From NCBI GenBank assembly GCA_946403755.1, contig CAMJBC010000009.1, positions 1 through 57,274 of the forward strand: a stretch of DNA of 57,274 bases, given 5' to 3'. The notes beneath the pieces are model-generated. The model saw nothing but the letters and a program-made list of their open reading frames with translations, did not search any database and had not been told where the DNA came from. Shown here one piece after another: positions 12,308 to 50,154 of this stretch (position 1 is its first letter; every line of letters starts with the position of its first letter). The translations under genes were made by a program, and so were the position numbers. Source of the stretch: an uncultured Mycoplasmatota bacterium. GTDB lineage: Bacteria; Bacillota_I; Bacilli_A; RF39; UBA660.

Positions 12308-12361
12308 ATTATTACCTCTCTCTAACTAAAAATATTTTATCAAAAGATAAATCAAAAGTCA

Positions 12362-22660: not shown

Positions 22661-22716
22661 TAAGTCAGTATGATAGGTGAAATCATATTGTACTACTATG
22701 ATTGAAAGGAGTGATT

Positions 22717-30600: not shown

Positions 30601-33600
30601 GGAACTGTAGGATATATCTATGGTGGAGGAAATCAAGCTCCAGTTGATAATACAAATATCATAGTTGATTATGGAACTGTAGATACTATATTTGGTGGAT
30701 GTAATGCAGCAGTTACAAATGAAGATACTTATATTACTATAAATGGTGGAACTATTGGTTCTGGCATTTATGGAGGAGGAAACTTTGGTGCTGTAACTGG
30801 TGATACTCATGTAGTTTTAAATAATAATGATGGAGTAATTCCAAATGTATATGGTGGAGGAAACCAAGCTGGTGCTGATAACACGTATATTAATGTCAAT
30901 ATATCAGCAGTAGGTGGTGCAACTATAGGAAACCTATATGGAGGATCAAATCAAGCTGGAAATATTACATCAACAAATATTACTAAGAATGCAGGAACAG
31001 TTAGTAACTTATACGGTGGAAATAATGCCGGAGGTACTGTAGATACAACAAATGTAACTATTAATGGAGGAGATATTACTACTAACTTATTTGGTGGAGG
31101 TAATGTAGCTCCAGTAGGTGATTCAAATATCACATTAACAAATGGTACAGTTAAGAGTATCTATGGAGGAGGAAACTTTGCTCCAGTTAGTGGAGATACT
31201 ACAGTTAAAATAACTGGTGGTACAGTTCAAGAAGATGTCTTCGGAGGAGGATGTTTAGGAGCTGTAAATGGTTCTACTGATGTTCTTGTAAATGGTGGAA
31301 ACATAAATGGTAGTGTTTATGCTGGTGGAGATGGTTCAACAGCAGTAGTTTATGGAGACACTAAAGTAAGTGTAGGTGACAGTACAACAATTGGTACACC
31401 AACATGTCAAAACAAGAGTGAATGCTCAGTATTTGGTGGAGGAAATGCTGCCAAGACAGGAGCTGAAAATGCTAATAGTTCATTAGCAATAGTTAATATA
31501 GCTGGTGGACATATATATGGAAATGTATATGGAGGACCTAATACATCTAAAGTTAATGGTGGAACTCAAGTAAATATTGGTTCTGATGTTACTTTATCAG
31601 ATGAATTAACAAAAGGAAATATTCATATACATGGAACTGTGTTCGGTGGTGGTGAAGCTAACGCTTCAGGTTCTGAATTCTATGACTGGACATTCATAAG
31701 TGTTACAGATGATATCGTAATTAATATAAATGGAGAAAATTATAACCTAGATATAGATGGATCTATATTTGGTAGTGGTAATGCTTCAACTACATCTGGT
31801 AACAGTTCAATCACAATTAAAAATTTTGGTACATATTCTACACCAAAGAAATGTGTATCTATTCAAAGAACAAACTTATTAACAATCAATAATTCATCTA
31901 TAGCTTTATCTGGAGCATCAGATAGAACTAATGATTACTCTGATGTATTATTTACATTCTCATTAATAGATGAATTAGATTTAATGAATAATTCAACATT
32001 ATACTTAGAAACAGGTACTAATATCTTAAAGAAATTTAAGAGTTTAACTGCTACTGGTGCAGTAGCAACAGTAGATATTGATAGTGATAATAAAACTGTT
32101 ACTAAGAATGTTGATAATAGAATTTATGTTATATCTGGTAAAAATATTAACATTGCTAAAAATGCAAGTGTTACTGAATATGGTGAAGTTATTGGTATGA
32201 CATTCTTCGGAATGTATAAATACAATGGTAATGGAACTGTAAATCAAGGTATTTATGATAAACATGATTTTGATGATGATTTAGATTGGGCAGGTATATT
32301 TGCTCAAGGTTCTTATGTACTTGGATTACATAAAACAAATCATGATATAGAAGCTGATGGTTTCTATACTAATGTAATGGATGAGGAAACTGGAAAGAAC
32401 TCAATTGAATATATTGAGCCAACTCCACCAGCTAGTGCAGAGTATATGTGGCTTGTTGGTAAAAAGATTATTTCTTATGAAGTAGACTTAGTAGCATCTA
32501 AATATTCTACATTAGGTACTTCTGAGCTATCTCTAAGAGACTTCACATTACCAAATACATCATTCCAAATCTTATCATTTGATTCAAGTGCTCTTGCAAG
32601 CGGAATAACTCTTACTACTAAAAATAATATTCCAAGAGTTACTCAAGATGAAACTATTGCTGACACATTAATGGGTCTAACAATGGAAACAAGTAACGCT
32701 GGATGGTTAGTAAATGGTTATACTGAATTTAGAAATGATACAGATACTGATGTAAATGGAACAATCAACTATATTGGTGGTAATAATACATTAACTCCAT
32801 CATTACTATTCTGTTTACATCATGTTAAAAATATTGCTAACGCAGGTAATATGGGTAGTGTAACTATTATGTTACTTGCTGTAACTCAATTAGATGATTT
32901 AAATAAACAGATAGAAAGTTTAGCAATAACAGTAAACTTATCAAGAGTTTTATATACAACAGCTGATTATGAAGCGGCGATGACTGCTGGTAGAAAATAT
33001 GAATTATTTACAAGTACAGCTACAAATATTTCATCTGCTTCATCAATTAGTGCATATTATGCATTATTCCATTCAGGAGATTCTATTTATCATGAAGGAT
33101 ATTATAGATCATTAATTTCTAACTATGTTTTACCTTTAGGAACTAAGATAACAATGTTAGATTTAAGTGGTGAAGGTGTTGATTATTATTATCACGTTAT
33201 TAATGCAAGTGATGTAGCTAATGCACAACAACAACTTCAACAGCAAGGTGATGTTCAATATTTATTATCTATGTTTGAAGTTATGGGTGCTCAGAATAGT
33301 GGTAAATACTATGATGATGAGGCAAAAAATAGTGAGTATTATGATGCAACACTGCAAACGAGTGATGAAGAATTTATATTCATACTTGATTTTGATGATT
33401 GCTCGATCAATTCTAATCAATTAGGCAACTCATTATTAATAGAAATGCTTGATGAAGATGGAGAAACAGTTAATACTGTTCTTGGTCCACAACAAGGAAA
33501 TCTAGTGTATAATATTTATGCTAATAAAGATGCACTAATTGATATAGAAGGTTCTATAGATAAAGAAGTTATCTATAGTGGAGAATCAGTAACAATGGAT

Positions 33601-34386: not shown

Positions 34387-34488
34387 ATGAAAGAATTATC
34401 AAATAATGAATTATTAGAAGCTTACGAAATGCTTAAAAAGTTTATTAAAACTTTGGAAAAGAGCAAGGAGGAAGTAACACATGACTAA
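34387..34488 (+). CDS. 33-residue helical microprotein
   Basis: ATG 34387 is preceded by AGGAAGGAAGA, a strong ribosome site, and the frame ends in TAA at 34486-34488, overlapping the next gene's ATG (34481) by eight bases. The product is charged and amphipathic (LSNNELLEAYEMLKKF, then KTLEKSKEEV) and should form one helix or coiled coil. It lies 15 bases after the stop of the giant gene. Good ribosome site and overlap argue that it is translated; it may couple translation of the downstream gene or bind its product. Confidence 0.6.
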   Translation: MKELSNNELLEAYEMLKKFIKTLEKSKEEVTHD

Positions 34489-35986
34489 GGAATTGCAAAA
34501 AGAATTTGATGAAATTTTAGCAAACTTAGAAATCCTTCCTACTAATAATGCCAAAAATGTAGAAAAATATGTTGAATACATTGATGGTTATTTAAATAAG
34601 TATACTCAATTATTTAAAGATGCAGAAAGTGAAATAAATGCTAGATATACTGAAACATTAAGCAAGTATTCAACATTAAGATTTGAGGAAGGAAATATAA
34701 GTATTAACTATAATTCATTCAAATTATCTGATAGTAGAGTACCATCAGATGAAAAGATGAATTTACCATATTTATTCTATAAATTAAGAAATTCAACTAG
34801 TCAAAACTTACAAGAAGTTAACAATATAATATTAGAAATCCAAGAGAGTTTTAAAACAGTTGGCGTATTATTAGTTGATAAAGATTTTGATATATCAGAA
34901 AATGTTAATTTATATATGAAATCATTATTAAGTAATAGCGATAATATTCAAGATATATTTAATAGTATATTCTGGAAAACATCTAATTTATTAGGACAAA
35001 TAGAACTTAATTATAGATATTTATATAATAAACATAAATCTAAAATAGATGATTATTTTAAACAAAAATATGCTAATTTTGATTATAACAAATACCTAAA
35101 TTCACATAGAGATTTAGTTAATTCAAATGATTTAGCTAAACATAGTAGTTTAAAATATATATATGATTTGTTTATAAATGGTACTTATGAAGTAGAAGAC
35201 TTTGTTAGTGAAAGTAGAGTACAAAATCTATTTAATAAAGTACTTGCTGATTCTTCTTCAGATAGAAATTATGAATGTTTGATTAAACTTAAAAAGTCTT
35301 TAGTAGAATATAAAGGTTACTTAGATTATGAATATATTATTAAAGACTTTAAAGAATTATATTCTCATCAAGCAGAATATAAAGATTTATTTCCAAATAA
35401 ATTAAAGGAAATAGGTAAGAAAGAATCAACTATTATATCTTTAAATAAGAAGATTAATAAGACTGGATTATTCAAGTTAAGTAAGAAAAAACTTGATATT
35501 GCTTTAACTGAAAGAAATAAATTAATTGATGAACTTATTAATGATTATAAAGAATTAGATGATTTAAGAATAAAGGATTGCATCGCTAATAATGTAACTC
35601 CTGAAAGTAGTTTATATAATATTCTTGTATTTACTTCATATAACTTAGTATATTTTGTAAATTTATTAGAACGTCAGGGTGAAGAAATTACAGTAGAACT
35701 AGTTAATAAACATATGCTTAATCTTCAAAAATATTTATATGATAATTATATTGATATAATTAATAATGTTTATATTAATGAAGATAAACAAATAGATAAA
35801 ATAATAGTAGAGATGTACAAAAGAAATAGTATCATTTTAACAGAAGAAGACATTACTATTGACTCTATTTCAAAATATATAGAAACTGTTGATAAATTAA
35901 TTACATATTTTGATGTATATACAGTTATGATTAATTTAAAAGACGTTGACTTTATATTAAAAGTACCAAATGTACTAAAGAAATAA
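34481..35986 (+). CDS. Cytoplasmic helical protein of the fibre locus, unknown function
   Basis: A 501-residue protein without signal peptide or membrane segment; I do not recognise a family. It is almost entirely helical and charged, with probable coiled coils near residues 1-60 and 310-370 (KESTIISLNKKINKTGLFKL, then LTERNKLIDELINDYKELDD). A few aromatic-rich spots (FWKTSNLLGQIELNYRYLYN) suggest a folded core. AAGGAGGAAGT precedes ATG 34481. It sits between the giant solenoid gene and the SipW/camelysin genes in the same transcript, so a regulatory or assembly role on the inner side of the membrane is an inference. The gene at 39530 is of similar character but I see no clear sequence match. 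Confidence 0.65.
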   Translation: MTKELQKEFDEILANLEILPTNNAKNVEKYVEYIDGYLNKYTQLFKDAESEINARYTETLSKYSTLRFEEGNISINYNSFKLSDSRVPSDEKMNLPYLFYKLRNSTSQNLQEVNNIILEIQESFKTVGVLLVDKDFDISENVNLYMKSLLSNSDNIQDIFNSIFWKTSNLLGQIELNYRYLYNKHKSKIDDYFKQKYANFDYNKYLNSHRDLVNSNDLAKHSSLKYIYDLFINGTYEVEDFVSESRVQNLFNKVLADSSSDRNYECLIKLKKSLVEYKGYLDYEYIIKDFKELYSHQAEYKDLFPNKLKEIGKKESTIISLNKKINKTGLFKLSKKKLDIALTERNKLIDELINDYKELDDLRIKDCIANNVTPESSLYNILVFTSYNLVYFVNLLERQGEEITVELVNKHMLNLQKYLYDNYIDIINNVYINEDKQIDKIIVEMYKRNSIILTEEDITIDSISKYIETVDKLITYFDVYTVMINLKDVDFILKVPNVLKK

Positions 35987-36007
35987 ATATATTAAGTGAG
36001 GTTTATT

Positions 36008-36574
36008 ATGGGAAAAATATTGGATTTTATTAAAGGAATAATAATTACTATATGGGTATTTGTAGCAATAGTAACTACAGTATACTTAATATTCTTTAAT
36101 GAATATAGTGTTAGTCAGATTGGTGATTTATCAATATTTATTGTTGATAATGAAAGATTAGAACCTAGTTTTCATAAAAATGATATAGTAATTGCTAGAA
36201 AAGTAGCTGAAGAATCATATAAAGTTAATGATTATGTATTCTTTTACTTAGATACTACTAATGATAATATTTATATTAATTATGCATCTATTGATAAAAT
36301 AGATAAAAATGAACATGCTGAAGATGCATATCATTTTGGTAAAGATATGGTTTCATATAGTAGTTTAATTGGCCCAGTTAATGGTACTATTGTTTATCAC
36401 AAAGCTGGAGCTGTATTAAGAATATTCTCTTCTAGAATAGGGTTCTTATTCTTAATCATATTACCAACATTATTTGCTTTGGTATATGAAATATTCTCTA
36501 TTGTAGAAGAAGCAAAAGCTGAGGCTAAAGAAGAAGCTAAAGCAGCGGCAGAAAGTGAAAAAAATGAGGGATAA
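36008..36574 (+). CDS. SipW-like signal peptidase homologue without catalytic residues
   Basis: ATG 36008 is used because GTGAGGT lies six bases upstream; a GTG at 35996 is part of that site. The 188-residue protein has a membrane segment (about 10-30), an S26-type core and a second segment (about 143-163) with an Ala/Glu-rich cytoplasmic tail. Aligned to SipW at 37229, D-N-E-R-L-E-P replaces K-T-G-S-M-A-P, so Arg50 stands at the nucleophile Ser, and IYINYAS replaces SYITHRI, so Tyr92 stands at the catalytic His. It keeps KNDIVIARK and the IGPVNG strand. It should not be proteolytic and may act as a chaperone or regulator for SipW substrates. It overlaps the next gene. Confidence 0.72.
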   Translation: MGKILDFIKGIIITIWVFVAIVTTVYLIFFNEYSVSQIGDLSIFIVDNERLEPSFHKNDIVIARKVAEESYKVNDYVFFYLDTTNDNIYINYASIDKIDKNEHAEDAYHFGKDMVSYSSLIGPVNGTIVYHKAGAVLRIFSSRIGFLFLIILPTLFALVYEIFSIVEEAKAEAKEEAKAAAESEKNEG

Positions 36575-37205
36575 CTTCAAAGTTATAATTTGGATAGTAG
36601 TTTTCATATTAGTAATAGCTTCATTTGTTGTATTTGCTGATACTCTTGCATTATTTGAAACTAATGGTACTGGTGAAGCAAATATGGATATAGGTAAATG
36701 GGTTATTAAAATAAGTGATGTAGATATTACAAGTCCCAGTGTACAAGAGATTGTAATAGATAATTTCACTTATGCTAGTAATGTAAATGTTGCACCTGGA
36801 AAAATAGCACCTGGATCAAGTGCTTACTTTGATTTGGTTGTAGATGCAACAGAATGCGATGTAGCAGTTAAATATGATATTACATTTAATTTTGAAGATG
36901 CTGGATATGCAAGTAATATTGGATTTAGTGTGTCTCAAGTTGGATCTAATACTGTAGTTCAAACTGGACCAAATACATATTCAGGAATAATTGATTTAGA
37001 AACTATTAGTGAAGAAGAAGTAGTAACATTAAGAGTTAATGTAGTGTGGAATAATATAGAAGCACTAAATGAAAATGATACTGCTTTAGGTAAAGAATTA
37101 AATAGTAAATTAGCAATACCAGTAACAGTAATAGCTGTTCAGTATTTAGGAGAAACTCTAACACCATATAATAATGGTGGTGGGTCTAATCAAACAGGTA
37201 ATTAA
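36564..37205 (+). CDS. TasA/camelysin-like SipW-substrate protein
   Basis: A 213-residue exported protein. The N-terminal hydrophobic stretch and FADTLALFETNGTGEANMDIGKW carry the typical order of camelysin/TasA precursors: small-residue cleavage site, aromatic, then a T-x-G-x-x-N strand and I-G-x-W. That I-x-x-W-x-I motif (GKWVIKI) recurs in the TasA-like proteins at 43790 and 44480. The mature domain (NVAPGKIAPGSSAYFDLVVD) is a beta-sandwich with no catalytic site. The start is uncertain: GTG 36555 is also possible; both overlap the preceding gene. SipW follows 23 bases downstream, as in tasA operons where peptidase and substrate are neighbours. Confidence 0.8.
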   Translation: MRDNFKVIIWIVVFILVIASFVVFADTLALFETNGTGEANMDIGKWVIKISDVDITSPSVQEIVIDNFTYASNVNVAPGKIAPGSSAYFDLVVDATECDVAVKYDITFNFEDAGYASNIGFSVSQVGSNTVVQTGPNTYSGIIDLETISEEEVVTLRVNVVWNNIEALNENDTALGKELNSKLAIPVTVIAVQYLGETLTPYNNGGGSNQTGN

Positions 37206-37228: not shown

Positions 37229-37969
37229 ATGTCATTCGTTAAAAAAGGATTAAAACTTATTGTGGATATTTTAACTTTTTTAGTATTTATAGTTCTTATA
37301 GTAATTATATTTGCTAAATTTAAGATGATGATATCTGGAAATGATTATTTTGAGTTGGCAGGATACTCAGTTTTTAGCGTGAAAACAGGTAGTATGGCAC
37401 CAGCTATTAATCAAAATGATGTTATTTTAGTTAAATCACAAGATTATTATGAAATGGGTGACATTATTACTTATAAAGAAGAAAAAAGTTATATTACTCA
37501 TAGAATAATATCTGTTAGAGGGCATGATATCATTACTCAAGGAGACGCTAATAATGCTAAAGATTCTTCAATAACAGATGATATGGTAATAGGAAAAGTA
37601 GTAAAAATATATTCAAATATGGGAGTATGGCAAAAAGTAGTAACTACACCTAAAATTATAATAATGATATTTGTTACTTTAATGCTTTTTGATATAGCAT
37701 TTTCATATAAAGGAATTAGAAGAAGACAAAATATTAAAATAGCTGATAGAATTAGTGATATAGCATTTGAAAAAGTTCTTAACATTGAAAATGCTCCTAA
37801 ATTAACTAAAAAAGAGATAAAAGTATTAAAGGATAAAGCAGAACAAGTTAAAAAAGGTGGAGATGTTGTTTTCGATAAGAAAGAAAAACAATTTGTTAAC
37901 TATACTATTAGATTAGATTTAGGTGAACTTAAAAAAGAAATAGATGAAAATGTAAATGGAGATATTTAA
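37229..37969 (+). CDS. sipW: SipW-type signal peptidase I
   Basis: A 246-residue ER-type (S26B) signal peptidase. Membrane segment at about residues 10-30, then KTGSMAP with nucleophile Ser55, ITHRI with His91 instead of the Lys of ordinary SipS-type enzymes, and GDANNAKD with conserved Asp. A second membrane segment (about 138-157) leads to a basic cytoplasmic tail of about 80 residues, longer than in Bacillus SipW. SipW matures TasA and camelysin precursors, which matches the flanking genes. AGTAGGAAGG is upstream. Its stop overlaps the next start (TAATG). Confidence 0.88.
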   Translation: MSFVKKGLKLIVDILTFLVFIVLIVIIFAKFKMMISGNDYFELAGYSVFSVKTGSMAPAINQNDVILVKSQDYYEMGDIITYKEEKSYITHRIISVRGHDIITQGDANNAKDSSITDDMVIGKVVKIYSNMGVWQKVVTTPKIIIMIFVTLMLFDIAFSYKGIRRRQNIKIADRISDIAFEKVLNIENAPKLTKKEIKVLKDKAEQVKKGGDVVFDKKEKQFVNYTIRLDLGELKKEIDENVNGDI

Positions 37970-38568
37970 TGGTAAAAGAATTTTTGAAGAAATTTGATAC
38001 ACAAAGATTCATATTCGTGGGTAAAATTATATTTATTTTATTTGCATGTGTCATGATATTCAATTTAGTTGATAAAGCAAATTCAAGATATGAATCTAAT
38101 GCCACTATTAGTGCAGAAGCAAGTGTAGCTTTCTTTGTAGTTGATCAAGGCACATATGAAGGATCAATTTCTTTAACAGGTCTTGAACCTAGTACAAATC
38201 CATTTTATTACACATTTTATGTTCAAAATTTTGATTCAGCTGGTAATAGAACTGATGTTAACTTACAATATGATATTAAGTTTGAAACTACTACTAATTT
38301 ACCATTAACATATGAAATTATAAGAAATCAGTCATTTAATGGTACTTATACTAATCTTTTGACTAATTTTACTACTAGACAAGATGATAATGATGTGTTT
38401 TATAAAACATCTAATAATTTAGGTACTTTTAACTTCGGTTTTGCTAACAATCAAGTTGATCAATATACGATCAAAGTTAACTTCCCAATTTCGTATAAAG
38501 ATCACCCTGAATACCAAGGAACAATCGAAATTTTTTCAATAATTATTAATGCAACGCAAGTTGCATAA
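37969..38568 (+). CDS. Exported beta-rich protein, probable SipW-type substrate
   Basis: A 199-residue protein with a basic N terminus, a hydrophobic stretch at about residues 17-33 (FVGKIIFILFACVMIFNLVD), then ANSRYESNATISAEASVAFFVV, which has the aromatic and Ser/Thr strand expected after a SipW-type cleavage site. The rest is beta-rich (FYYTFYVQNFDSAGNRTDVN and TIKVNFPISYKDHPEYQGT) with no catalytic residues. It overlaps the sipW stop (TAATG) and so is translated with it. It is the last gene of unit B; a terminator hairpin starts inside its final codons. Role as minor subunit is inferred from context. Confidence 0.65.
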   Translation: MVKEFLKKFDTQRFIFVGKIIFILFACVMIFNLVDKANSRYESNATISAEASVAFFVVDQGTYEGSISLTGLEPSTNPFYYTFYVQNFDSAGNRTDVNLQYDIKFETTTNLPLTYEIIRNQSFNGTYTNLLTNFTTRQDDNDVFYKTSNNLGTFNFGFANNQVDQYTIKVNFPISYKDHPEYQGTIEIFSIIINATQVA

Positions 38569-38589: not shown

Positions 38590-38612
38590 TTTTATGATTG
38601 GAGAATAGCGAA

Positions 38613-39521
38613 ATGAAGAAGAAAAAACTACTCATAATGTTGCTAATTATATGTATGATAGTTATTCCTTTTAGTTTTACTTTGGGCCGATATGTAATGG
38701 ATAATATCAAAGATTACATAATGGAGACTAATCATTTCTTCTTCAGTAGTGATAAATTGCAAGCTGGAGGCATCACATATGAAGTTAATAACTGGGGTGG
38801 TGCAGATGTGTTTGAAATTCAATTTGAGCTAAACAATCACAAAAATAACATCCTAACTAGTCAAGGAGATATAGAATATTCAATTGATTTAGATTATGAT
38901 GATAATGACATTATATGTAGCATAAACAGTGATAATGGAACTATTTATGAAGCTGAAAAAACTGATAACTTTACTTTAACAGTTACACCAAGAAGAGTAT
39001 TTGCAGATGAAGAATCAGTAAGTGTTACAGTTACAGCAACATCTTCAACTCCATATGTCAAAGAATTAAGTGCTACATATATTATTACTGTTGGTAAAAG
39101 GGGTATATCTTATCAAATCACAGATAGTGTTAATTCACCATATTTGATGTTTTCTATAACAAATGCTATTGATACATATGTAGTTAGAACAGCATTTGGA
39201 ACTCATACAGTAGGTGAAATTATTACATCTAGTGAATATATTAATTTATCCTCTGCAGATAAAGCTAAATGTGCATCAGCCATTATTACTTTAACATGGG
39301 ATCCAGAAGATATAGTAATAGATACTACTAGTAGTTTAATAAGTAGTGGTGCAACTACTACAACGTCAACATATAATGGAATAGCTTATATTAATTCTAT
39401 TACTTTCCCTGTTGATATTTTGAGTAGTACAGAAGTTAGATTTTATAAATGGAATGTTGCTAATAATTATACTTATCCATTTGTAGCACAGACACCAATA
39501 GTAACATTTAGTGCTTCATAG
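38613..39521 (+). CDS. Exported beta-rich protein, probable SipW-type substrate
   Basis: ATG 38613 has GGAG nine bases upstream; the longer TTG frame starts within this site. The 302-residue product has a Lys-rich start, a hydrophobic segment (about residues 6-24, LLIMLLIICMIVIPFSFTLG) and RYVMDNIKDYIMETNHFFFS, followed by a Thr/Ser-rich beta domain with Ig-like features (FTLTVTPRRVFADEESVSVT). No catalytic motif, LPXTG or C-terminal membrane segment is seen. Nearest character is that of the TasA-like neighbours. First gene of unit C. Subunit identity is inferred from context. Confidence 0.65.
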   Translation: MKKKKLLIMLLIICMIVIPFSFTLGRYVMDNIKDYIMETNHFFFSSDKLQAGGITYEVNNWGGADVFEIQFELNNHKNNILTSQGDIEYSIDLDYDDNDIICSINSDNGTIYEAEKTDNFTLTVTPRRVFADEESVSVTVTATSSTPYVKELSATYIITVGKRGISYQITDSVNSPYLMFSITNAIDTYVVRTAFGTHTVGEIITSSEYINLSSADKAKCASAIITLTWDPEDIVIDTTSSLISSGATTTTSTYNGIAYINSITFPVDILSSTEVRFYKWNVANNYTYPFVAQTPIVTFSAS

Positions 39522-39529
39522 GAGGAAAT

Positions 39530-40516
39530 ATGGATTGTATATTTGATGAATATATAAAATTTGTTGAAAATTTCCTCATTAATTACTTTAAGTTCTTGTT
39601 AGCAGGAGATTATGAAAGAAGTTTAATTAGACCATTTATTGATAGATATATTGATGTTAGGTATTATAATCATTTTTCTTTCGTAAAAGAACCAACATTT
39701 ACTCAAAAACTTAATAAAGAACTAAATAACGTAGCTAAAGAAGTAATGAGTGAGAATGAAGATAAAACAGAAAAGGTGAAGAATATATTCGCTCTTTTTG
39801 GCTACATTCTTTACATAGATGGTTGCTTTAGTTATTCAAATATAAGTACACTTACTAAATCATTATTTAATGATGCTAATATTAAATTACAATATAGTGA
39901 TAAAACAAAAGCAGGAGTTACTGAATTAATAAGAGATTTTACTGATAAGAAAAATGAGTTTTTCAAATTATTTGATACAGATGAATTCTTCTTAAGAGGT
40001 AGAAAAGTAGAAGAAAATACATATTTAGTTGATTTAGGTAATAATTGTCATATATCTAAGTTATATAGTGAATATGCAATAGAAAAAGCTTACAACTCAG
40101 AAGTAGTAAGTGAAAATAGAATATATTTAATGTTAGTTATGCTTACTACTAAAGTATTAGCAGAAGCAATAGCATTAAATTTTGATAATACATATATTTT
40201 TGATTTTCCTGAAACATTATTAGAGAAACAAAAGAAAATAATAAAATATTTAAAATTACTTGATAATGATTTATTAAGAAATAAAATTCAATTAAGATTT
40301 AAATATTCAACATATAGAAATAGAGTATTAAAGAAAGAAATAAATAAATTAATAAATAAAGATTATAGTATAAGCATAGAACTTGATGATACATTTGATA
40401 GTGATTATGATAGCTTAGTACTATTTAGTAGCGTTTTTGTTAATAAAAATGGTAAATATTATCAAAACGTTATGGAGAATAAAGAGGAATATAAATTGAA
40501 AGTGATGGAGGTGTGA
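39530..40516 (+). CDS. Cytoplasmic protein of the fibre locus, unknown function
   Basis: A 328-residue soluble helical protein that I cannot assign to a family. TAGGAGGAAAT precedes ATG 39530. Visible elements are a basic/aromatic N-terminal helix (YERSLIRPFIDRYIDVRYYN), a hydrophobic core (FALFGYILYIDGCFSYSN), an R-x-x-R-x-x-x-K stretch near residue 265 and an acidic patch (ELDDTFDSDYDS). It ends one base before the AAA+ gene's ATG and is surely cotranslated with it, so it may be an adaptor or regulator for the McrB-like ATPase. This is inference from spacing only. Confidence 0.65.
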   Translation: MDCIFDEYIKFVENFLINYFKFLLAGDYERSLIRPFIDRYIDVRYYNHFSFVKEPTFTQKLNKELNNVAKEVMSENEDKTEKVKNIFALFGYILYIDGCFSYSNISTLTKSLFNDANIKLQYSDKTKAGVTELIRDFTDKKNEFFKLFDTDEFFLRGRKVEENTYLVDLGNNCHISKLYSEYAIEKAYNSEVVSENRIYLMLVMLTTKVLAEAIALNFDNTYIFDFPETLLEKQKKIIKYLKLLDNDLLRNKIQLRFKYSTYRNRVLKKEINKLINKDYSISIELDDTFDSDYDSLVLFSSVFVNKNGKYYQNVMENKEEYKLKVMEV

Positions 40517-40517
40517 T

Positions 40518-42065
40518 ATGCAGACATTTTTGAAATTCTTTTATGATATTTTAAGTCAATTCTTTTCTGGAATTATGGCTATTCTAGATGGATTCATAAG
40601 TGGAATTGGTAAAATATTTAATTTTAAAAGATACATTGATATTGCTAAGAACTATAAAGGTGATTTCAATGTAGGTGAATGGGTATTATTTGCTATAGCT
40701 GTGTTATTAATGGTTATTATAATCGGTTTAATAGTACTTCTAATTGTATTCTTAATTAGAAAATATATTAGATTTAGAAAAACTGTAGTTGAACAAGAAT
40801 CAATGTTAGAAGAAATATCAGAATTAAATAATAAAGTAGCAACTCTAGTACAAGAAAAAGAAGAAATACTTGCTATGAAAGTATCACATCTTGGACTTAA
40901 ACCTAATGAATCAGATACTACTGAAAAACCTGAAGGTGCAACTGGTGAAGAAGGTGAGAGTGAAGAAGAAGTTGATCCTAATACTTCAATTAGATTTGCT
41001 AAACTACATGATGTAGATATGCAATATGCTGACTATAAAATACCTGATTATGGAAATAACTTCACTTTATCAGAATTAGTTGAATTATTTAGAAACTTTG
41101 CTGCTAGTCAGTTAGGTTTATATTATAAAAGTGAAATGATTAGATTATTCTTATCAGCACTAGGATGTACAAAACTTGTTATCTTACAAGGTATCTCTGG
41201 TACTGGTAAAACATCACTTGCCTATGCTTGGGGAAAATTTTTAAAACACGATTCATGTGTTGCTTCAGTTCAACCATCATGGCGTGATAGATCAGAACTT
41301 TTCGGATACTTCAACGAATTTACAAAGAAATTTAATGAAACAGATATTTTAAAAACATTATATGAAGCTGGATATACTGATGATATTCACACAGTAATCC
41401 TAGACGAAATGAACATCTCTCGTGTTGAGTACTATTTCGCTGAAATGTTATCAATTCTAGAGATGCCTAACCAAGATGAATGGATTGTAGAAGTTGTTTC
41501 TTCTGGATGGCCAAGCGATCCAATTCACTTAAAGAGTGGTAAACTTAGAATTCCACCAAACTGTTGGTATATAGGAACAATCAATAACGATGACTCAACA
41601 TTTATGGTTACTGATAAAGTTTACGACCGTGCTATGCCAATAGATATTAATGATAAAGGTCAAGTGTTTGAACCTACTTCTGTTCCAGCACAAGATATAA
41701 ATTATTCTTATTTGAATAAATTATATCAAGAAGCTATTGAAGCAAATCCTATGACTGATGAAATGCTACAAAAGATTGAAGAAATGGATGATTATGTTAT
41801 CCAACACTTCAGAATTGCTTTTGGTAACAGAATTGTTGCTCATATGAAAAAATTTGTTCCAATATATGTAGCTTGTGGTGGAGAAGAGGTTGATGGAGTA
41901 GATTACTTCATAGCAAGAAAAATACTTCGTAAGTTTGAACAATTAAATATTTCATTTATTAGAGATGAAATAGATGGATTTGTTGATTTCTTAAATAAAG
42001 AATTCGGTCAAGACAAAATGAAGGAGTGTATTGAATACGTATTAAGACTTAAGAAATTAGCATAG
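40518..42065 (+). CDS. Membrane-anchored McrB-like AAA+ ATPase
   Basis: A 515-residue AAA+ protein. A membrane segment at about residues 55-78 and a coiled coil (about 88-120) precede a linker and the ATPase. Walker A is GISGTGKTS (225-233), the McrB-typical VQPSWRDRSELFGYFN follows, Walker B is VILDEMN (292-298), and sensor 1 is GTINNDDS (about 353). The W-R-D-R and D-E-M-N signature places it in the McrB/DUF-associated branch rather than among ClpX or FtsH. Classical McrB has a DNA-binding N terminus; here it is replaced by the membrane anchor. C-rich codons in the ATPase core suggest good expression. It precedes the DUF2357-like gene by 20 bases. Possible roles are remodelling of the fibre export complex or membrane-based defence; neither is proven. 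Confidence 0.85.
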   Translation: MQTFLKFFYDILSQFFSGIMAILDGFISGIGKIFNFKRYIDIAKNYKGDFNVGEWVLFAIAVLLMVIIIGLIVLLIVFLIRKYIRFRKTVVEQESMLEEISELNNKVATLVQEKEEILAMKVSHLGLKPNESDTTEKPEGATGEEGESEEEVDPNTSIRFAKLHDVDMQYADYKIPDYGNNFTLSELVELFRNFAASQLGLYYKSEMIRLFLSALGCTKLVILQGISGTGKTSLAYAWGKFLKHDSCVASVQPSWRDRSELFGYFNEFTKKFNETDILKTLYEAGYTDDIHTVILDEMNISRVEYYFAEMLSILEMPNQDEWIVEVVSSGWPSDPIHLKSGKLRIPPNCWYIGTINNDDSTFMVTDKVYDRAMPIDINDKGQVFEPTSVPAQDINYSYLNKLYQEAIEANPMTDEMLQKIEEMDDYVIQHFRIAFGNRIVAHMKKFVPIYVACGGEEVDGVDYFIARKILRKFEQLNISFIRDEIDGFVDFLNKEFGQDKMKECIEYVLRLKKLA

Positions 42066-42085
42066 AAAGGATAAAAGGGTAAAAT

Positions 42086-43210
42086 ATGCAAGGTGATTTA
42101 AAGATATTAGATGTATATAAGAATTCTGATGCCTCTAAAGTAGATAAATTTGATGCATCACTTAAATCTTCTTATTCATTAGCATCAAACTATGAAAAAA
42201 TTGAAGCAGATTTTGCATGGCTAGATATCATGGAAGATACTATTAAATACTTAGATAATATTCTTAGAAACCCTAATAGATTTATCATTAATGACGAAGA
42301 GGTTGTTAATGTAGAACAAGCTAGAAGAATTACTGTAGAAAGTATTAAACATCTTGCAAAACATACCAATTATATTCAAGAAATAGAAGATAATGGTGAT
42401 GTTAGACCTTCAAAAGTATTAAATATTAATAAAGATGAAAGTTTTAACACATATGAGAATAGACTTATTTATACTTTAATTAATAATATGAGAACATTTA
42501 TTGATTTTAAAGTAAGTAAGAATATAACAGCATCTACATTAAAAGATGAAAAGAAGTGTGAATATACAGGAGTTACTAAAATAGGTGCTGAAAAAGTTAG
42601 TTATAGTTTTGTTCTTAATGCTAAAACTGATGTAGATAAAAAAGATGGATTTAGAAATGGTATGAGTGTAGAACAAAGAATTGCTAGATTAAAATTAAGA
42701 ATTAGTGATTTAACTAACATGCCAGTATATGTAGCACTTGCTAAAGAACATGTTGCTAAAGTTATACCACCAATTAAGAAGACAAACTTAATTCTTAAAA
42801 ATACTAACTTCCAATATGCTATGAAATTATGGGATTTCATACAAAACTATATTAAAGATGAAGATACTGTAGTTAGAGATAAAAAATTAATAGAAGAAGA
42901 TTTAAATCTAAAAGAAATGCTAGATGATGTATTCCTTCTTAATTATTTAGCTGTATCTAGTATAAATAATGAAGGTAATTTAGATGTTCAAGCAAGAGCA
43001 GAAACAGTAGAGAGTTTAACTAATAAAATGATTGAGAAGATAGTTCAATTAAATGCAGATTTACCTGTTGATAAGATGTTAGAATCTATCGGTGAAAAAG
43101 TTGCTGTTGTTAAGAACAAGAAAGAAGCTTCTTTAGCTGAATTAGAAAGAAAATATAATGAAAGGATTCAAATTTATATTGATAAGATAAATGAGTTTAG
43201 TTTTAGGTGA
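42086..43210 (+). CDS. DUF2357-like partner of the AAA+ ATPase
   Basis: A 374-residue soluble protein. The part NKDESFNTYENRLIYTLI (about residues 113-130) matches the N-x-x-E-N-R signature of DUF2357 proteins, which pair with McrB-like ATPases in the way McrC pairs with McrB. Many DUF2357/McrC proteins end in a PD-(D/E)xK nuclease; here the C-terminal 130 residues are helical and coiled-coil (KKEASLAELERKYNERIQ) and I see no PD-(D/E)xK motif. It should therefore be a regulator of the ATPase rather than a nuclease. AAAGGGTAAA lies upstream of ATG 42086; the stop overlaps the ribosome site of the next gene. Confidence 0.65.
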   Translation: MQGDLKILDVYKNSDASKVDKFDASLKSSYSLASNYEKIEADFAWLDIMEDTIKYLDNILRNPNRFIINDEEVVNVEQARRITVESIKHLAKHTNYIQEIEDNGDVRPSKVLNINKDESFNTYENRLIYTLINNMRTFIDFKVSKNITASTLKDEKKCEYTGVTKIGAEKVSYSFVLNAKTDVDKKDGFRNGMSVEQRIARLKLRISDLTNMPVYVALAKEHVAKVIPPIKKTNLILKNTNFQYAMKLWDFIQNYIKDEDTVVRDKKLIEEDLNLKEMLDDVFLLNYLAVSSINNEGNLDVQARAETVESLTNKMIEKIVQLNADLPVDKMLESIGEKVAVVKNKKEASLAELERKYNERIQIYIDKINEFSFR

Positions 43211-43215
43211 TATTA

Positions 43216-43797
43216 ATGAAAAAACTAAAAGAACTAAAAAGAAAAATATCCGAAAATAAAGCATTAAATATAATTTTAGGCATAATAAAATTTATTATAT
43301 ATGCCTTTTTAATATTGCTTTTAGTTACTATTTTAGTTCAAAAAATATCACAAAATAAAAAGACCATTGGTGGATTTATGGTATTTACAGTAGCATCAGA
43401 ATCAATGGTTCCAGAATATAAAGTTGGGAATATCCTTTTTACTAAAAAAGTTCCTGAAGAAGATTTAAAAGTAGGAGATAATATTACATACTTAGGTATG
43501 GAAGGTAGAATGGCTAATTTAGTTATTACCCATAAAATAGTAAAAATAGAAAAAGAAAATGGAGTAACTAAATTTACTACTAAAGGTTTACAAAATATAA
43601 TACCTGACCCACCTATAGTATATGATCAAATATATGGAAAAGTAGTATACAAAACAGCTATATTAAGTTATGTTGCTAAAGTAATTAATAATAAAATAGT
43701 TTATTATGTATCATTTATAGTAATAGGCTTAATAGTATCTATAGAAGTTGTATCTGCTATATTTGCATCTAGGAGAGAGGATGGTGCTGATGAATAA
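43216..43797 (+). CDS. sipW: Second SipW-type signal peptidase I
   Basis: ATG 43216 is used, since TAGGTGA lies six bases upstream. The 193-residue protein has membrane segments at about residues 19-41 and 160-180. ASESMVP carries nucleophile Ser63 and VITHKI carries His106, so the ER-type Ser-His pair is present. In place of the GDAN loop it has KGLQNIIPDP, where the Asp is shifted, and the cytoplasmic tail is short, unlike the peptidase at 37229. It overlaps the next TasA-like gene by eight bases, suggesting that this is its dedicated substrate. Activity is likely but slightly less certain than for the first enzyme. Confidence 0.84.
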   Translation: MKKLKELKRKISENKALNIILGIIKFIIYAFLILLLVTILVQKISQNKKTIGGFMVFTVASESMVPEYKVGNILFTKKVPEEDLKVGDNITYLGMEGRMANLVITHKIVKIEKENGVTKFTTKGLQNIIPDPPIVYDQIYGKVVYKTAILSYVAKVINNKIVYYVSFIVIGLIVSIEVVSAIFASRREDGADE

Positions 43798-44440
43798 AAA
43801 AAATAAAACAACGCCATTTTTTCTAAGAGTACTAAAGAAAATTAAAGTAAGCCATTTAGTAATATTAGCATTATTATTAATTGGTAATACTTATGCATGG
43901 TTTATCTATATTGATACAGTAAGTAATAGTGTAGATGTTCATATTAAAGCATGGAATATTGATTTACAAGATGATCAAGGTACTGTTACTGATACAGTTA
44001 CTGTATATGTAGATGCAGTATATCCTGGAATGACTACATATGAAAAAGAAATTAGAGTAAGTAACTTTAGTGATTTAGATGCAACCGTATCATATGATAT
44101 ATTATCTGTAGAAATAATGGGTGAAAAAACTTATTCAAGAGAAGGTAAAATAGAATATAACTTAGCTACTTCTCAAAATGATCTTACAAGTGCTCAATTA
44201 ATACAACAATTAGCTAATGATTATCCATTTGTAATTGATTTTGATATTGATGAAACACACTTAGAAGCTGTAACTGGTACAGCAACATATACAATATCAA
44301 TAGCATGGGATTATGAATCTGGAAATGATACATTAGATACATATTGGGGAGAAAGAGCATTTACGTTTGTTAATGAAACTCCTGGAGCTGCTTGTATAAG
44401 TTTAGATATCAAAATAAAAATACAACAAGATGATCAATAG
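43790..44440 (+). CDS. TasA/camelysin-like SipW-substrate protein
   Basis: A 216-residue exported protein. The start ATG 43790 has AGGAGAGAGG nine bases upstream; ATG 43781 is an alternative. The signal is typical: LVILALLLIGNTYAWFIYIDTVSNSVDV, with cleavage expected after T-Y-A and W-F following. IKAWNIDL gives the I-x-x-W-x-I motif seen in the camelysin-like proteins at 36564 and 44480. The remainder is a beta-sandwich (VYPGMTTYEKEIRVSNFSDL) with TYTISIAWDYE near the end, as in TasA-family proteins. It is the last gene of unit C and overlaps the second sipW. Confidence 0.82.
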   Translation: MNKKNKTTPFFLRVLKKIKVSHLVILALLLIGNTYAWFIYIDTVSNSVDVHIKAWNIDLQDDQGTVTDTVTVYVDAVYPGMTTYEKEIRVSNFSDLDATVSYDILSVEIMGEKTYSREGKIEYNLATSQNDLTSAQLIQQLANDYPFVIDFDIDETHLEAVTGTATYTISIAWDYESGNDTLDTYWGERAFTFVNETPGAACISLDIKIKIQQDDQ

Positions 44441-44479: not shown

Positions 44480-45061
44480 TTATCTCTTTTGAACTACATT
44501 TAAATTAACTGCAAATGCTGCATTTCCATTAGCTGTAACACTTGTATCAGCACCATTATCCATAGTTTGAGTTACTGGATCATCATTCCATTTAACATAG
44601 AATCTAATAGATGTTACCTTATCTTCAGCATTTAATAATACATCATCACTTATTGAATTACCAATAGTATATGAATAGTTTACTTCTCCTATAGTATATT
44701 TAGTAATAATTAAGTCATCTACATCATTACTAGCAGCATAATCTATAGTTAATGTATATGTATAAGATACGTCAGTATCAGAACCATCAATTACTATATC
44801 AAAATATCCTTCTGATGTAGGGGCTATTACATCTTCTTTTATATTAGTAGTTCCTTCAAATGTTGGAACTATTAAATTAGTAAAGTTAGAGTTTTCTTTA
44901 ATATCTTGGTCATTTACTAAAATGTTCCATCTAGCTATTGTAAAATCAGCGTTAGTATCAGCAGTTGTTACATATTTTGCATATGTAGACTGCATTAATG
45001 ACACACAATAGAATAGGCACATTAAAGCTACGAAAAACATTATTTTCTTTTTGACTTTCAT
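44480..45061 (-). CDS. TasA/camelysin-like SipW-substrate protein, convergent
   Basis: The start is the ATG at 45061-45059, preceded by GGGAGGAG eight bases upstream; an upstream in-frame ATG overlaps that site. The 193-residue product begins MKVKKKIMFFVALMCLFYCV and continues SLMQSTYAKYVTTADTNADFTIARW, a clear SipW-type signal with T-Y-A cleavage. IARWNILV is the I-x-x-W-x-I motif. The mature domain follows the same beta layout (DVIAPTSEGYFDIVIDGSDT) as the protein at 36564, whose KIAPGSSAYFDLVVDATE aligns with it, so these two are close homologues. It is monocistronic with its own promoter region sharing TATAATTAAGTCA with unit A. Confidence 0.85.
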   Translation of the reverse strand: MKVKKKIMFFVALMCLFYCVSLMQSTYAKYVTTADTNADFTIARWNILVNDQDIKENSNFTNLIVPTFEGTTNIKEDVIAPTSEGYFDIVIDGSDTDVSYTYTLTIDYAASNDVDDLIITKYTIGEVNYSYTIGNSISDDVLLNAEDKVTSIRFYVKWNDDPVTQTMDNGADTSVTANGNAAFAVNLNVVQKR

Positions 45062-45087
45062 AACAAACACTCCTCCCATTCTATCTT

Positions 45088-46393: not shown

Positions 46394-46545
46394 TATTAGA
46401 TGTAGTTTATGAACCAAGGTTATTTGGTGGAGAAAGTGATGTATTAGCATACGTAATTGCAGCTATTATAATAGTATGTGCAGTAATAATAACAATAAAA
46501 CTTATTAATAAAAAGAAGAAAAATGAAGATGAAAAAGGTAATTAG
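46390..46545 (+). CDS. 51-residue single-pass microprotein
   Basis: AAGGAGGT lies seven bases before ATG 46390. The N terminus (MILDVVYEPRLFGGESDVLA) is polar, followed by one membrane segment (YVIAAIIIVCAVIITIKLI) and a Lys/Glu tail, so the topology matches the preceding microprotein. It overlaps the SH3-like protein gene by 23 bases. No family recognised. Confidence 0.75.
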   Translation: MILDVVYEPRLFGGESDVLAYVIAAIIIVCAVIITIKLINKKKKNEDEKGN

Positions 46546-48448
46546 TTTTTTAATATTATTTTTCTTACCTATATTTGTTTTTGCTGATACAGGGCAACCT
46601 ATATATGCTGGTTATAATGCATATGTTAGTAATAAAAATGGAGCTTATTTATATACATTTAATGATAATAAAGAGTTAGAAATAACAGATATAAAATTAA
46701 AATATAATAAAAAAGTATATATAACAGATGAAATAGAGGTTGTTAAAGGTATTTTTTTTGGTGAAGTAGATTATGACTGCGGTGACGATGAGTGTGAAGA
46801 AACATATTATATTAATTTAGATAGAATTAAGAAAAATAATGAGGATAAAGTTTATTCACCAAGTGAATTAAATAGTGAGATAAAGAAAAGATTTGGAGCT
46901 GGAAATGTAGGTAATTTGGATATGATAAGTAAACCAGCAATTATTACAAAAGAAAATTCTACTATTTATAATTATCCTTCTTTTACGGCTAATAAATTAT
47001 CTTATAAACCAGAAATGTATGAAGAATTTACTTTAGTAACAATCATTACAAATTATCAAATGAGTACAGGATGGTTTTATATTAAAAATGATAATATTGA
47101 AGGTTGGATTAGTAGTAATGAAGGCTTAGCATATAATATGAAAGGCTCATTTGTATTTAAGGAAGAAACACCTACTTATACAAATAAGAAAAGCGATACT
47201 AAATCAGATTATATTATTCCTGCTAATACAACTTTAAGTGGAAATAACGTTTTTCAATTATATTTATATGGTATAGAAAATACATCAAAAGATGATTATT
47301 TAATTGTAAAAGATAATGATTCATATTATTGGGTAACAGATTATTTTTTGAATAATAAAGATGCTTTGGATAAAAAAGATATAATAGGTGAAGAAGAGGA
47401 AGATGATTCTACTTTTGATGTTATTTGTTTAGTAGATACACCTTATTATGAACAAATTGGAGAAACAACTATTGGAAAGATTCCTGCTAATACAGAATTA
47501 GAAGTTAAAAATTATTATGATAAATATAATGAAGATAAAGGTACTAGTGTAGAATACTATTATATTACTTATAATGGTAAAGATTACTGGGTAAAAGAAT
47601 CAGATGTTTCTGATGATGTAATGATTGATTATTCACATATATTTTTCACTGAAAAAACTAAGTATTATGAAAGAATAGATGGAGATTCTAAAGGAACTAT
47701 TTCAGAAGGAACAATCAAAGATATAAAAATGTGTGTTGAAAAATATAATTCTAAAACAGATAAAGATGAAAAATACTATAGAATTGAACAAAATAATAAG
47801 AATTATTGGATAAAAGAAAGTGATAAACAAGTATACTTTGGCGATGGTATATATGCTAAAAACCAAGCAATGATGACAAAAGATACAGACATTTATGACA
47901 AACTTGGCGGCAAAGTTGTTGGTAAAATTCCAAAAGGAGAAATTGTTCAATATTTAATTACTAATAATATATCTACTGATGAAGCAAATCCAAAATATGT
48001 ATATTCTTCAGAAGAATATTTGTACGTAAGGTATAATGAAAAATTATATTGGATAAAAACCAGTGATGTTATGAAAGCTAATTATAACACTAGTGTTTAT
48101 ATTAGTGACTCATATGAGTATTATGATGAAATAAATGGAACAAAAGTAGATATTGAAATAAGAAATAAAAAACCATATTCTTACTATTATGTAAAAGAGG
48201 ATGAAAACGATTGGTACTACTTAGATGGCTATAAAGTATGGGTAAAAAAATCAAACGTAATAGAAAAAGAATCAGAAGAACTTGATGATGAAAAAGATGA
48301 ACCTGTAGTAATTGCAGTAGAAAATGGTATTTCAAATAAAACTAAAATAATAATTAGTATATTTAGTTCAGTAATAATAGCGGTTAGTGCTGTAGTTAGT
48401 ATAATTTTAATAAATAAAATGAGAAAAGCAAAAGAGGTTGATAAATAA
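46523..48448 (+). CDS. Secreted SH3-like repeat protein with C-terminal membrane anchor
   Basis: A 641-residue protein with a signal peptide (KVISFLILFFLPIFVFA, cut before DTGQP), several bacterial SH3-like modules and a C-terminal membrane segment (about residues 608-630) with a basic tail. Modules are marked by repeated Y-Y-x-I/V-x-Y-x-x-K-x-Y-W-V/I-K-x-S-D endings, for example GKDYWVKESDV, NKNYWIKESD, EKLYWIKTSDV, and GWFYIKNDNIEGWIS near residue 185. SH3b domains often bind wall peptides. ATG 46523 or 46529 is possible; no clear ribosome site, so translation may be coupled to the upstream microprotein. The next gene is a paralogue. Confidence 0.8.
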   Translation: MKMKKVISFLILFFLPIFVFADTGQPIYAGYNAYVSNKNGAYLYTFNDNKELEITDIKLKYNKKVYITDEIEVVKGIFFGEVDYDCGDDECEETYYINLDRIKKNNEDKVYSPSELNSEIKKRFGAGNVGNLDMISKPAIITKENSTIYNYPSFTANKLSYKPEMYEEFTLVTIITNYQMSTGWFYIKNDNIEGWISSNEGLAYNMKGSFVFKEETPTYTNKKSDTKSDYIIPANTTLSGNNVFQLYLYGIENTSKDDYLIVKDNDSYYWVTDYFLNNKDALDKKDIIGEEEEDDSTFDVICLVDTPYYEQIGETTIGKIPANTELEVKNYYDKYNEDKGTSVEYYYITYNGKDYWVKESDVSDDVMIDYSHIFFTEKTKYYERIDGDSKGTISEGTIKDIKMCVEKYNSKTDKDEKYYRIEQNNKNYWIKESDKQVYFGDGIYAKNQAMMTKDTDIYDKLGGKVVGKIPKGEIVQYLITNNISTDEANPKYVYSSEEYLYVRYNEKLYWIKTSDVMKANYNTSVYISDSYEYYDEINGTKVDIEIRNKKPYSYYYVKEDENDWYYLDGYKVWVKKSNVIEKESEELDDEKDEPVVIAVENGISNKTKIIISIFSSVIIAVSAVVSIILINKMRKAKEVDK

Positions 48449-50154
48449 TGAAAAGAATATTTAAATATTTAATAGTATTATTACTTTTTATACCAATATT
48501 TGTTCTAGCTGATGGAGCAGGTCCTTCATTTGCACCATATAATGCATATGTAAGTGATAAAGATGGGGCTAGTTTATATGATTATGATAGTGATAAAAGT
48601 GCGTATGTAAGAACTAAACACTTTTTAGAATATAATCATCAAATAAAAATAGAAGATGAAGATGTAGTATCAAAAGATTTAGTATATGGATATATTGAAT
48701 ATAATGATGAATACTATTACATAAACTTAAACAAAATATCTCCTTTAAAAGAAGAATATACAGTAGATGATTTAAGAAAAGAATTTGAAATAGATTCAAG
48801 TAATACAGAAGATGAAATTATTGAAGAAAATAAAGTATTAGTTTTATCTGATAATGTAGTAGTAAGAAAAGGACCATCTTTTAAATATGACACAATAGAA
48901 GAAAAACTACAAAAAGAATTAGTTATTGATAAAAAAGCAGAAGTTGGATCATGGATGTATGTAGAAAATGATAGTGTACATGGATGGATTAATACAGATG
49001 ACAATATAATAATGAAAGAAAAAGAAGGAACTGTTTGGCTATTAGAAGATACTGAAGTATATGATAATGTTTTGATATCAAAAAATAAAATATTAGATAC
49101 AAAAATACCTAAAAATGAAAAATTTAATAATGTATATTACTATTATTATGAAGAAAAAATAAAAGAAGCATCACCAGATGATGACGAAGATGAGTACAAA
49201 TACTATGATGTATATAGAGTAGAATATGAAGGAAAAACATATTATATAGATACTGATGAAGCTATATATGCAGTAGAAGATTCTGGTAAATATATAACTT
49301 ATAAAGAAGCAAATTGTTATAATGAATTAGATGGTAATGTTATTAAAACAATTCCACAAAATACTAAAGTAGACATAAAGTATTATTCAATAAATGCAAA
49401 AACTAATTGGGCATATGTTGAAGTTGGTGAAGAAAACTATTGGATTAAAACATCAGATGTTGGCTCATACTACGAAAGCCCTATGAAAACAGTTGATGAT
49501 ATAGAAGATGTTAAAAATAGTATTACTATTCCTGCCAATACTGAATTTGAAAAATATTATTATGTTTCTAGTGAAGAATTATATTATGTAGAATATAAAG
49601 GTAAGAATTATTGGTTTTATGGAAATAATTTAACAGCAGATTATATAGATGAAGAATACGGAGAATATACAACTTCAGGTGAAACATATTTATATGATAA
49701 ACCAAATGGAGAAAGAACCGGTGTTAGTATACCTGAAGATACTGATGTTATTATTAAATATGATTATTATTTTAGAGGAGAAAATGGAACTGTTCTTTGG
49801 TATTATTTAGATAGTAAAAAATATAAAGGTTGGATATCAGATGAAGAAAATGACATGACTGAGTTTCAAGAATCATTGCCTAAAGAAGATAATACTACAG
49901 TAGAAGATATAAAACCTGTCACTGTTCCTACAGAACCAGAAGTTGTAGTAGCTAGTAAATCATTATCTAAAAAAGAAATGATAATTATTTGTTCATTATC
50001 AGCTGTAATATTAGCATTAGTAATATATGTTGTAATATTACTTGTTAATAAAAAGAAAAAAGAAAAAGTACAAGCTACTGAAACTGAACCAGTAGTAACT
50101 ACAGAACCAAGTACAGAATTAGTAGAAAATAAACAGGAAGATAATAATGCCTAA
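48448..50154 (+). CDS. Secreted SH3-like repeat protein, paralogue of the preceding gene
   Basis: A 568-residue paralogue with the same plan: signal peptide (LIVLLLFIPIFVLA), the same first mature motif (A-P-Y-N-A-Y-V-S-D-K-D-G-A versus A-G-Y-N-A-Y-V-S-N-K-N-G-A), SH3-like units (VVRKGPSFKYDTIEE, VENDSVHGWI, EENYWIKTSDV, GKNYWFYGNN), a C-terminal membrane segment (about 507-528) and a charged tail. VLSDNVVVRKGPSFKYD is the classic start of an SH3b repeat. It overlaps the previous gene by one base. A tandem duplication is the likely origin. Confidence 0.82.
   Translation: MKRIFKYLIVLLLFIPIFVLADGAGPSFAPYNAYVSDKDGASLYDYDSDKSAYVRTKHFLEYNHQIKIEDEDVVSKDLVYGYIEYNDEYYYINLNKISPLKEEYTVDDLRKEFEIDSSNTEDEIIEENKVLVLSDNVVVRKGPSFKYDTIEEKLQKELVIDKKAEVGSWMYVENDSVHGWINTDDNIIMKEKEGTVWLLEDTEVYDNVLISKNKILDTKIPKNEKFNNVYYYYYEEKIKEASPDDDEDEYKYYDVYRVEYEGKTYYIDTDEAIYAVEDSGKYITYKEANCYNELDGNVIKTIPQNTKVDIKYYSINAKTNWAYVEVGEENYWIKTSDVGSYYESPMKTVDDIEDVKNSITIPANTEFEKYYYVSSEELYYVEYKGKNYWFYGNNLTADYIDEEYGEYTTSGETYLYDKPNGERTGVSIPEDTDVIIKYDYYFRGENGTVLWYYLDSKKYKGWISDEENDMTEFQESLPKEDNTTVEDIKPVTVPTEPEVVVASKSLSKKEMIIICSLSAVILALVIYVVILLVNKKKKEKVQATETEPVVTTEPSTELVENKQEDNNA

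Follow-up and report, generated by a model that had tools for sequence, protein, structure and literature searches.

Organization of the locus

The analysed stretch of 57,274 nucleotides (hereafter the window) carries a compact set of genes for a membrane-anchored McrB-type AAA+ protein (referred to as the ATPase), a DUF2357 partner protein, an EAL-fold protein, three signal-peptidase-fold proteins and several exported proteins (Table 1). One base lies between the gene of the EAL-fold protein and the start of the ATPase gene (40516/40518), 20 bases separate the latter from the DUF2357 gene, and the signal peptidase gene starting at 43207 shares 4 bases with the end of the DUF2357 gene. The giant protein contains many short YGGGN/YGGSN-type repeats, gave no family match and is likely to form a long repeat solenoid; identity searches with the 501-aa protein gave no match. 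Downstream of the array, neighbouring genes at 46523–48448 and 48448–50154 encode a related pair of exported proteins that have SH3-like repeats and a C-terminal transmembrane (TM) segment.

Table 1. Genes and protein features of the locus (positions in the window).
Position	Strand	Product	Basis and remarks
22702–24572	+	Two exported proteins (22702–23490 and 23487–24572)	Travel with the giant gene
24679–34371	+	Giant exported protein, 3,230 aa, YGGGN-type repeats	Many relatives encode related proteins close to the core
34481–35986	+	501-aa protein	Core-proximal in some relatives; elsewhere beside the giant protein
35996–36574	+	Signal-peptidase-fold paralogue 1; dead, catalytic Ser replaced by Arg and His by Ala	SipW/signal peptidase models, E 3e-5 to 8e-5
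36555–37205	+	Small exported protein, N-terminal hydrophobic segment; paralogue of 44480–45079	Conserved gene order; alignment
37229–37969	+	Signal peptidase, ER/archaeal/SipW type, Ser55-His91 intact	TIGR02228, E 1.4e-21
37969–38568	+	Small exported protein, position conserved	Conserved gene order
38598–39521	+	Exported protein, 307 aa; within the window's family only in ATPase-bearing genomes	Gene order, co-occurrence
39530–40516	+	Helical N-terminal domain and degenerate EAL fold (residues 151–328), 328 aa	AlphaFold, Foldseek, VIA
40518–42065	+	Membrane-anchored McrB-type AAA+ protein, 515 aa	Open reading frame exactly at this position
		Parts of the ATPase: amphipathic N-terminus 1–34; TM 48–87; Glu-rich coiled-coil-like helix ~90–125; AAA+ ~185–515
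42086–43210	+	DUF2357 (McrC N-terminal type) partner, 374 aa	Open reading frame exactly at this position
43207–43797	+	Signal peptidase, ER/archaeal/SipW type, Ser-His intact	TIGR02228, E 5.1e-24
43748–44440	+	Small exported protein, N-terminal hydrophobic segment ending NTYAWF	Gene order
44480–45079	-	Small exported protein, convergent, position conserved	Gene order, alignment

The McrB-type ATPase and its DUF2357 partner

Comparison of an AAA+ profile (34 homologues) with the whole PDB yielded McrB, the 5-methylcytosine-specific restriction enzyme B, as the sole match at E ≤ 0.01 (best E 3e-6). Among the 34 aligned homologues, which share 40–83% identity with the window protein, N356-x-D358-D359 is invariant, and the Walker A motif (GISGTGKTS, 225–233), the Walker B motif (LDEMN, 295–299) and R371 (YDRA) vary little or not at all. 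Because D359 also satisfies NxxD in the ungapped alignment, the window sequence alone is compatible with both NxD and NxxD. The PADLOC candidate-defence model PDC-M26A covers the AAA+ part (E 4.7e-35).

The only hydrophobic segment of the ATPase (residues 48–87) is also present in the homologues of the ~500–550-aa class; it continues into a positively charged exit, RKYIRFRK, and then a Glu-rich helical region. An N-terminal DNA-binding specificity domain as in McrB was not found, the TM segment and the helix being located there instead. The putative coiled coil was assigned by sequence inspection and by weak family matches (FtsL in the window ATPase, E 0.029; DivIC in 3 of the 34 homologues), and a simple heptad count was indecisive. 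For homology of the N-terminus to FtsB, only weak family matches were obtained.

In the partner protein, the PF09823 (DUF2357) match is restricted to residues 37–153 (E 1.2e-9), and Pfam revealed no nuclease domain. A motif scan detected neither a conserved catalytic triad nor a PD-(D/E)xK motif: the sole conserved [DE]xK (154–156) has D/E in just 73% of the sequences, and no column is invariant beyond W249 among 45 homologues. The AlphaFold model is of moderate confidence (pLDDT 71) and mostly helical at the C-terminus; no nuclease was listed among the top matches of fold searches with this moderate model. A hidden nuclease was thus rejected on three grounds, the missing Pfam match, the missing conserved motif and the helical C-terminus. 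The protein ends soon after the shared domain and has no C-terminal coiled-coil extension; longer partners in other families (574–861 aa) gained charged, coiled-coil-like low-complexity tails, with long ones in loci L098–L108, and no nucleases, Pfam giving DUF2357 or no match for those scanned.

The preliminary description of the pair as a membrane-anchored McrB-like ATPase beside a nuclease-less DUF2357-like protein is borne out by the PDB profile match, the retention of the TM segment in homologues and the inspection of the partner, in which no nuclease active site was found. Its proposal that a membrane segment plus coiled coil had taken the place of the DNA-binding part holds for the membrane segment; the coiled coil is left with the indecisive indications given above.

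The EAL-fold protein upstream of the ATPase

The product of 39530–40516 was modeled with high confidence (AlphaFold pLDDT 91.4, pTM 0.88). Its residues 151–328 resembled EAL domains (Foldseek probability 1.00; VIA Z 14.1, rmsd 3.0 over 168 residues), and the top structural matches of this part were essentially EAL domains alone, i.e. c-di-GMP phosphodiesterases and receptors; these included FimX and LapD, c-di-GMP receptors of this fold that serve pili and the retention of adhesins. The sequence gave no family match; PF00563 (EAL) was detected neither in this protein nor in the window's genome, and the fold is termed degenerate since the EAL catalytic motif was not seen in the alignment. Profile comparison with true GGDEF-EAL proteins remained below significance (the second alignment lay in the expected register), and a sequence-profile link to these proteins was rejected for this reason. 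The EAL assignment is one from predicted structure and gene position. A nuclease had also been considered for this gene and was dismissed, the model having an EAL fold instead.

Two independent observations agree with the assignment. In five genomes, the EAL-fold protein constitutes the C-terminal half of a 668–811-aa protein, the N-terminal half of which is a signal peptidase with intact Ser-His. In other families of Bacilli (loci L120, L122, L125, L129, L131), the position of the EAL-fold gene is occupied by a related set of ~450-aa membrane-anchored proteins, and the one scanned matched both EAL (5.5e-10) and GGDEF (8.7e-7). At the same five loci, a giant protein of 2,043–2,463 aa with C-terminal TM segment is encoded 5' of this gene (11–13 cadherin-like repeats in the two giants scanned), the four-gene set thus comprising a giant surface protein, a GGDEF-EAL-type membrane protein, the ATPase and a long-tailed DUF2357 protein; a third group of loci has GGDEF-EAL proteins at positions farther upstream. 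In the window's genome, no recognisable EAL protein and one GGDEF protein were found (L112 389–2401, contig 6; solute-binding domain plus GGDEF, motif DGDEF). With this gene content, a c-di-GMP signal is possible.

Signal peptidases and exported proteins

The products of the genes at 37229 and 43207 scored above the TIGR02228 cut-off, and all 51 peptidases aligned from the position downstream of the ATPase retain the Ser-His pair. Both catalytic residues are also lost in most paralogues at the 35996 position, which suggests a non-catalytic role of this type of protein. Six ER/archaeal-type signal peptidases are encoded in the window's genome, half of them (3/6) within 8 kb at the locus; no ATPase of this kind is encoded near the remaining three. 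On contigs 7, 6 and 12 (L113, L114 and L115, respectively), small exported proteins accompany signal peptidases in the absence of the ATPase pair, with one weak camelysin match. The region 11816–15142 of the window, on the minus strand, encodes a second dead signal-peptidase-fold protein (Ser to Asn, His to Gly) beside a 926-aa surface-like protein with C-terminal TM segment.

The small exported proteins gave no usable match to families or the PDB. Profile searches for an identity as TasA or pilin yielded no match, including none to TasA or Peptidase_M73; their fibre nature is plausible but unproven.

Conservation of gene order and co-occurrence

The DNA around the homologues (40 genome regions and 30 contigs) was collected, and the open reading frames were called and clustered. 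The core order in the window's lineage reads: dead signal-peptidase paralogue, small exported protein, signal peptidase, two more exported proteins, EAL-fold protein, ATPase, DUF2357 protein, signal peptidase, exported protein and convergent exported protein. The ATPase and DUF2357 genes are adjacent in 60 of 63 non-redundant loci, and a SipW/ER-type signal peptidase lies at most five genes away in 56 of the 63, some of the misses being contig ends.

In 147 relatives, an ATPase match was obtained in 45 (a few of them ordinary McrB) and a DUF2357 match in 39; the ATPase is patchily distributed among close relatives and absent from most. Within the window's own family (~90 members), 32 genomes carry it; the 38598 protein (26 family genomes) and the EAL-fold protein (24) occur exclusively among these 32, with hypergeometric p values of ~1e-17 and ~1e-15, respectively, that assume ~90 members and ignore relatedness. 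Many genomes of this set are incomplete. Close relatives without the ATPase also lack the 38598 and EAL-fold proteins, and this joint absence indicates that gain or loss affects the module as a whole. It is well supported that the context of the pair is a surface/export operon and not a defence island; the ~500–550-aa relatives do not lie mostly in defence islands devoid of SipW genes.

Distribution of related loci in the phylum

ATPase homologues (E ≤ 1e-20) were present in 84 of 392 sampled genomes of the phylum, and 40 sampled loci were sorted into groups. ATPases of ~500–550 aa with one TM segment are encoded beside signal peptidases and exported proteins or beside giant surface proteins; several families of the class share the association with signal peptidases. 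Some ATPases of ~600 aa with four hydrophobic segments adjoin peptidase-like proteins. Tandem ATPase-DUF2357-ATPase sets (L149–L153, L155, L156), some starting with a third, divergent ATPase, are located beside large anchored proteins (membrane-anchored and surface-like, 700–1,150 aa). The more distant relatives exhibit an NxDE motif. It is found in membrane-anchored McrB-type proteins of ~900 aa (L109 4541–8777, L110 5346–9567, L143–L148), which have a 510–530-aa DUF2357 partner, stand alone without signal peptidases and are matched by PDC-M26A more strongly than the window protein. Among the groups, a defence-like nature is most likely for this one, and from its missing signal peptidases it follows that the wider superfamily is not bound to surface loci only. 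A CxxC zinc-ribbon-like end was observed in three partners of ~600-aa four-segment ATPases (L138 9167–10489, L141 9092–10366, L154 7687–8778).

Proposed function and alternative explanations

The identity and the context of the pair are well supported; its action and any binding of c-di-GMP we infer. We regard it as fairly probable that the pair forms a nuclease-less, tethered McrBC-derived ring that acts in exporting or assembling a surface structure and is gated by an EAL-fold receptor. A single TM helix would anchor the McrB-derived AAA+ protein in the cytoplasmic membrane, the NTPase domain presumably residing inside the cell according to the positive-inside rule. By analogy with E. coli McrBC, this protein would assemble into a hexameric ring, to which the DUF2357 partner, the McrC nuclease being lost, would bind and which it would activate. 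The pair would serve as a dedicated, energy-consuming component of a surface structure that is processed by signal peptidase and encoded in the same operon, and, as the gene context suggests, NTP use might drive the steps that export, assemble or retain the exported proteins of the operon. The EAL-fold protein would connect this machine to the signal peptidase and probably also to a regulatory input; judged by its position, it may gate the ring in response to c-di-GMP or another ligand.

The adaptation of an AAA+ machine to a surface process, one of two roles considered in the preliminary description, is supported by the gene order, the peptidases close to the pair in 56 of the 63 loci, the co-occurrence of the module genes and the giant surface proteins beside the pair elsewhere. 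Of the observations from which it had been deduced, the tight gene packing and the flanking SipW genes (SipW/TIGR02228 matches, catalytic Ser-His columns) were confirmed; as to flanking fibre genes, the neighbours are indeed exported proteins, their nature as fibres having the standing given above.

A membrane-associated AAA+ machine could instead serve general quality control or remodelling of the divisome or the Sec/signal-peptidase complex, and co-regulation alone would account for the surface genes beside it. Three signal-peptidase-fold proteins adjoin the ATPase, and an FtsB/FtsL-like TM and coiled-coil resemblance, represented here by weak matches, has been reported for CoCoPALM, a kind of system named by Bell et al. 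(eLife 2024; PMC11090510). However, the ATPase is absent from most relatives and therefore not expected of a housekeeping function, and the three other signal-peptidase loci of the genome manage without it; this explanation is considered rather unlikely.

The other role considered, a defence module within a fibre operon, is not supported. Such a CoCoNuT-like, membrane-located anti-phage system would sense infection and kill the cell or block the phage via the membrane or an unknown effector, in line with the McrBC ancestry of the pair, the PDC-M26A match, the patchy presence among close relatives and the status of the CoCoNuT relatives as predicted defence systems (PMC11090510). Yet neither the partner nor any tested neighbour contains a Pfam-recognisable nuclease, a single gene order with signal peptidases is conserved in place of the varied neighbours of an island, surface genes are gained and lost together with the pair, and the EAL-fold domain is fused to a signal peptidase in some relatives, all of which makes a role in defence improbable. 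That the pair is a functionally unlinked passenger of a mobile surface operon would agree with its patchy presence, but is highly improbable in view of the near-perfect pairing, the catalytic motifs conserved at 40–83% identity and the recurrence of the signal-peptidase link in several families of the class, a link also found independently for the CoCoPALM clade (PMC11090510).

If the pair is a surface-structure machine as proposed, cell-surface biogenesis recruited a motor of a restriction system as one of its components, and the uncharacterised CoCoPALM clade would gain a concrete function, a likely control input (the EAL-fold protein) and likely clients, namely the signal peptidase along with the exported proteins that are its substrates. 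Defence-finding pipelines would likewise be warned, as some McrB/DUF2357 hits would not be defence genes. A far-reaching version, which we put forward tentatively and consider doubtful, is that such McrBC-derived mechanoenzymes constitute a new class of Gram-positive surface-structure motor, in which a tethered AAA+ ring, a nuclease-less McrC activator, an EAL-fold second-messenger gate and a dedicated signal peptidase would act on giant exported proteins and fibres, assembling, releasing or retaining them, in many families of Bacilli.

Comparison with known systems

With E. coli McrBC (type IV restriction; 6hz4, 6ut6), the window pair shares the AAA+ fold, the Walker A and B motifs, the N..D motif and the DUF2357 activator domain; in contrast, a membrane anchor is present, and neither a DNA-binding domain nor a PD-(D/E)xK nuclease was found. 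FimX and LapD are resembled by the degenerate EAL fold beside a putative surface-structure machine and, in relatives, by LapD-like membrane GGDEF-EAL proteins in the same position; the likeness is one of predicted fold, whereas sequence similarity of the window protein to them was not detectable. The SipW-TasA matrix-fibre operon of Bacillus, in which the archaeal-like peptidase SipW processes TasA of B. subtilis (PMC10269814), likewise places dedicated Ser-His peptidases of ER/archaeal type beside small exported proteins; the window operon differs in the additional AAA+, DUF2357 and EAL-fold genes and has no detectable TasA homologue. CoCoNuTs have in common with the pair the NxD motif, the coiled-coil fusion (putative in the window ATPase) and a McrC homologue that lost its nuclease (PMC11090510), but the window pair lies in a surface operon, and Pfam recognised no nuclease (McrC, HEPN or other) in either protein or in those neighbours that were scanned.

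The closest likeness is to CoCoPALM, to which Bell et al. devote a few sentences that give no mechanism, the details being deferred to a later paper (PMC11090510); a literature search found no such follow-up. There, an NxD McrB-type NTPase is fused to TM and coiled coil, its partner is a DUF2357 protein, and signal-peptidase genes adjoin (PMC11090510). The window pair likewise exhibits the McrB-type AAA+ (GTPase) domain, NxD followed by D, and the signal-peptidase association; of the FtsB-like TM plus coiled coil, the TM segment is present and the FtsB/FtsL matches are weak. The window partner differs in missing the C-terminal coiled-coil extension, which is usual for the McrC homologue of CoCoPALM and not a strict requirement (PMC11090510), and the operon adds the EAL-fold protein and the dead signal-peptidase paralogue, which the main text of that article does not mention. 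On account of domain, motif, partner and context, and with the usual coiled coil of the partner absent, the pair is CoCoPALM-like, a variant with an EAL-fold component; new here are the dead paralogue among the three local signal-peptidase-fold proteins, the degenerate EAL-fold gene directly upstream of the ATPase, the GGDEF-EAL-type membrane protein at that position in other families of Bacilli and the fusion of the EAL-fold protein to an intact signal peptidase in five relatives.
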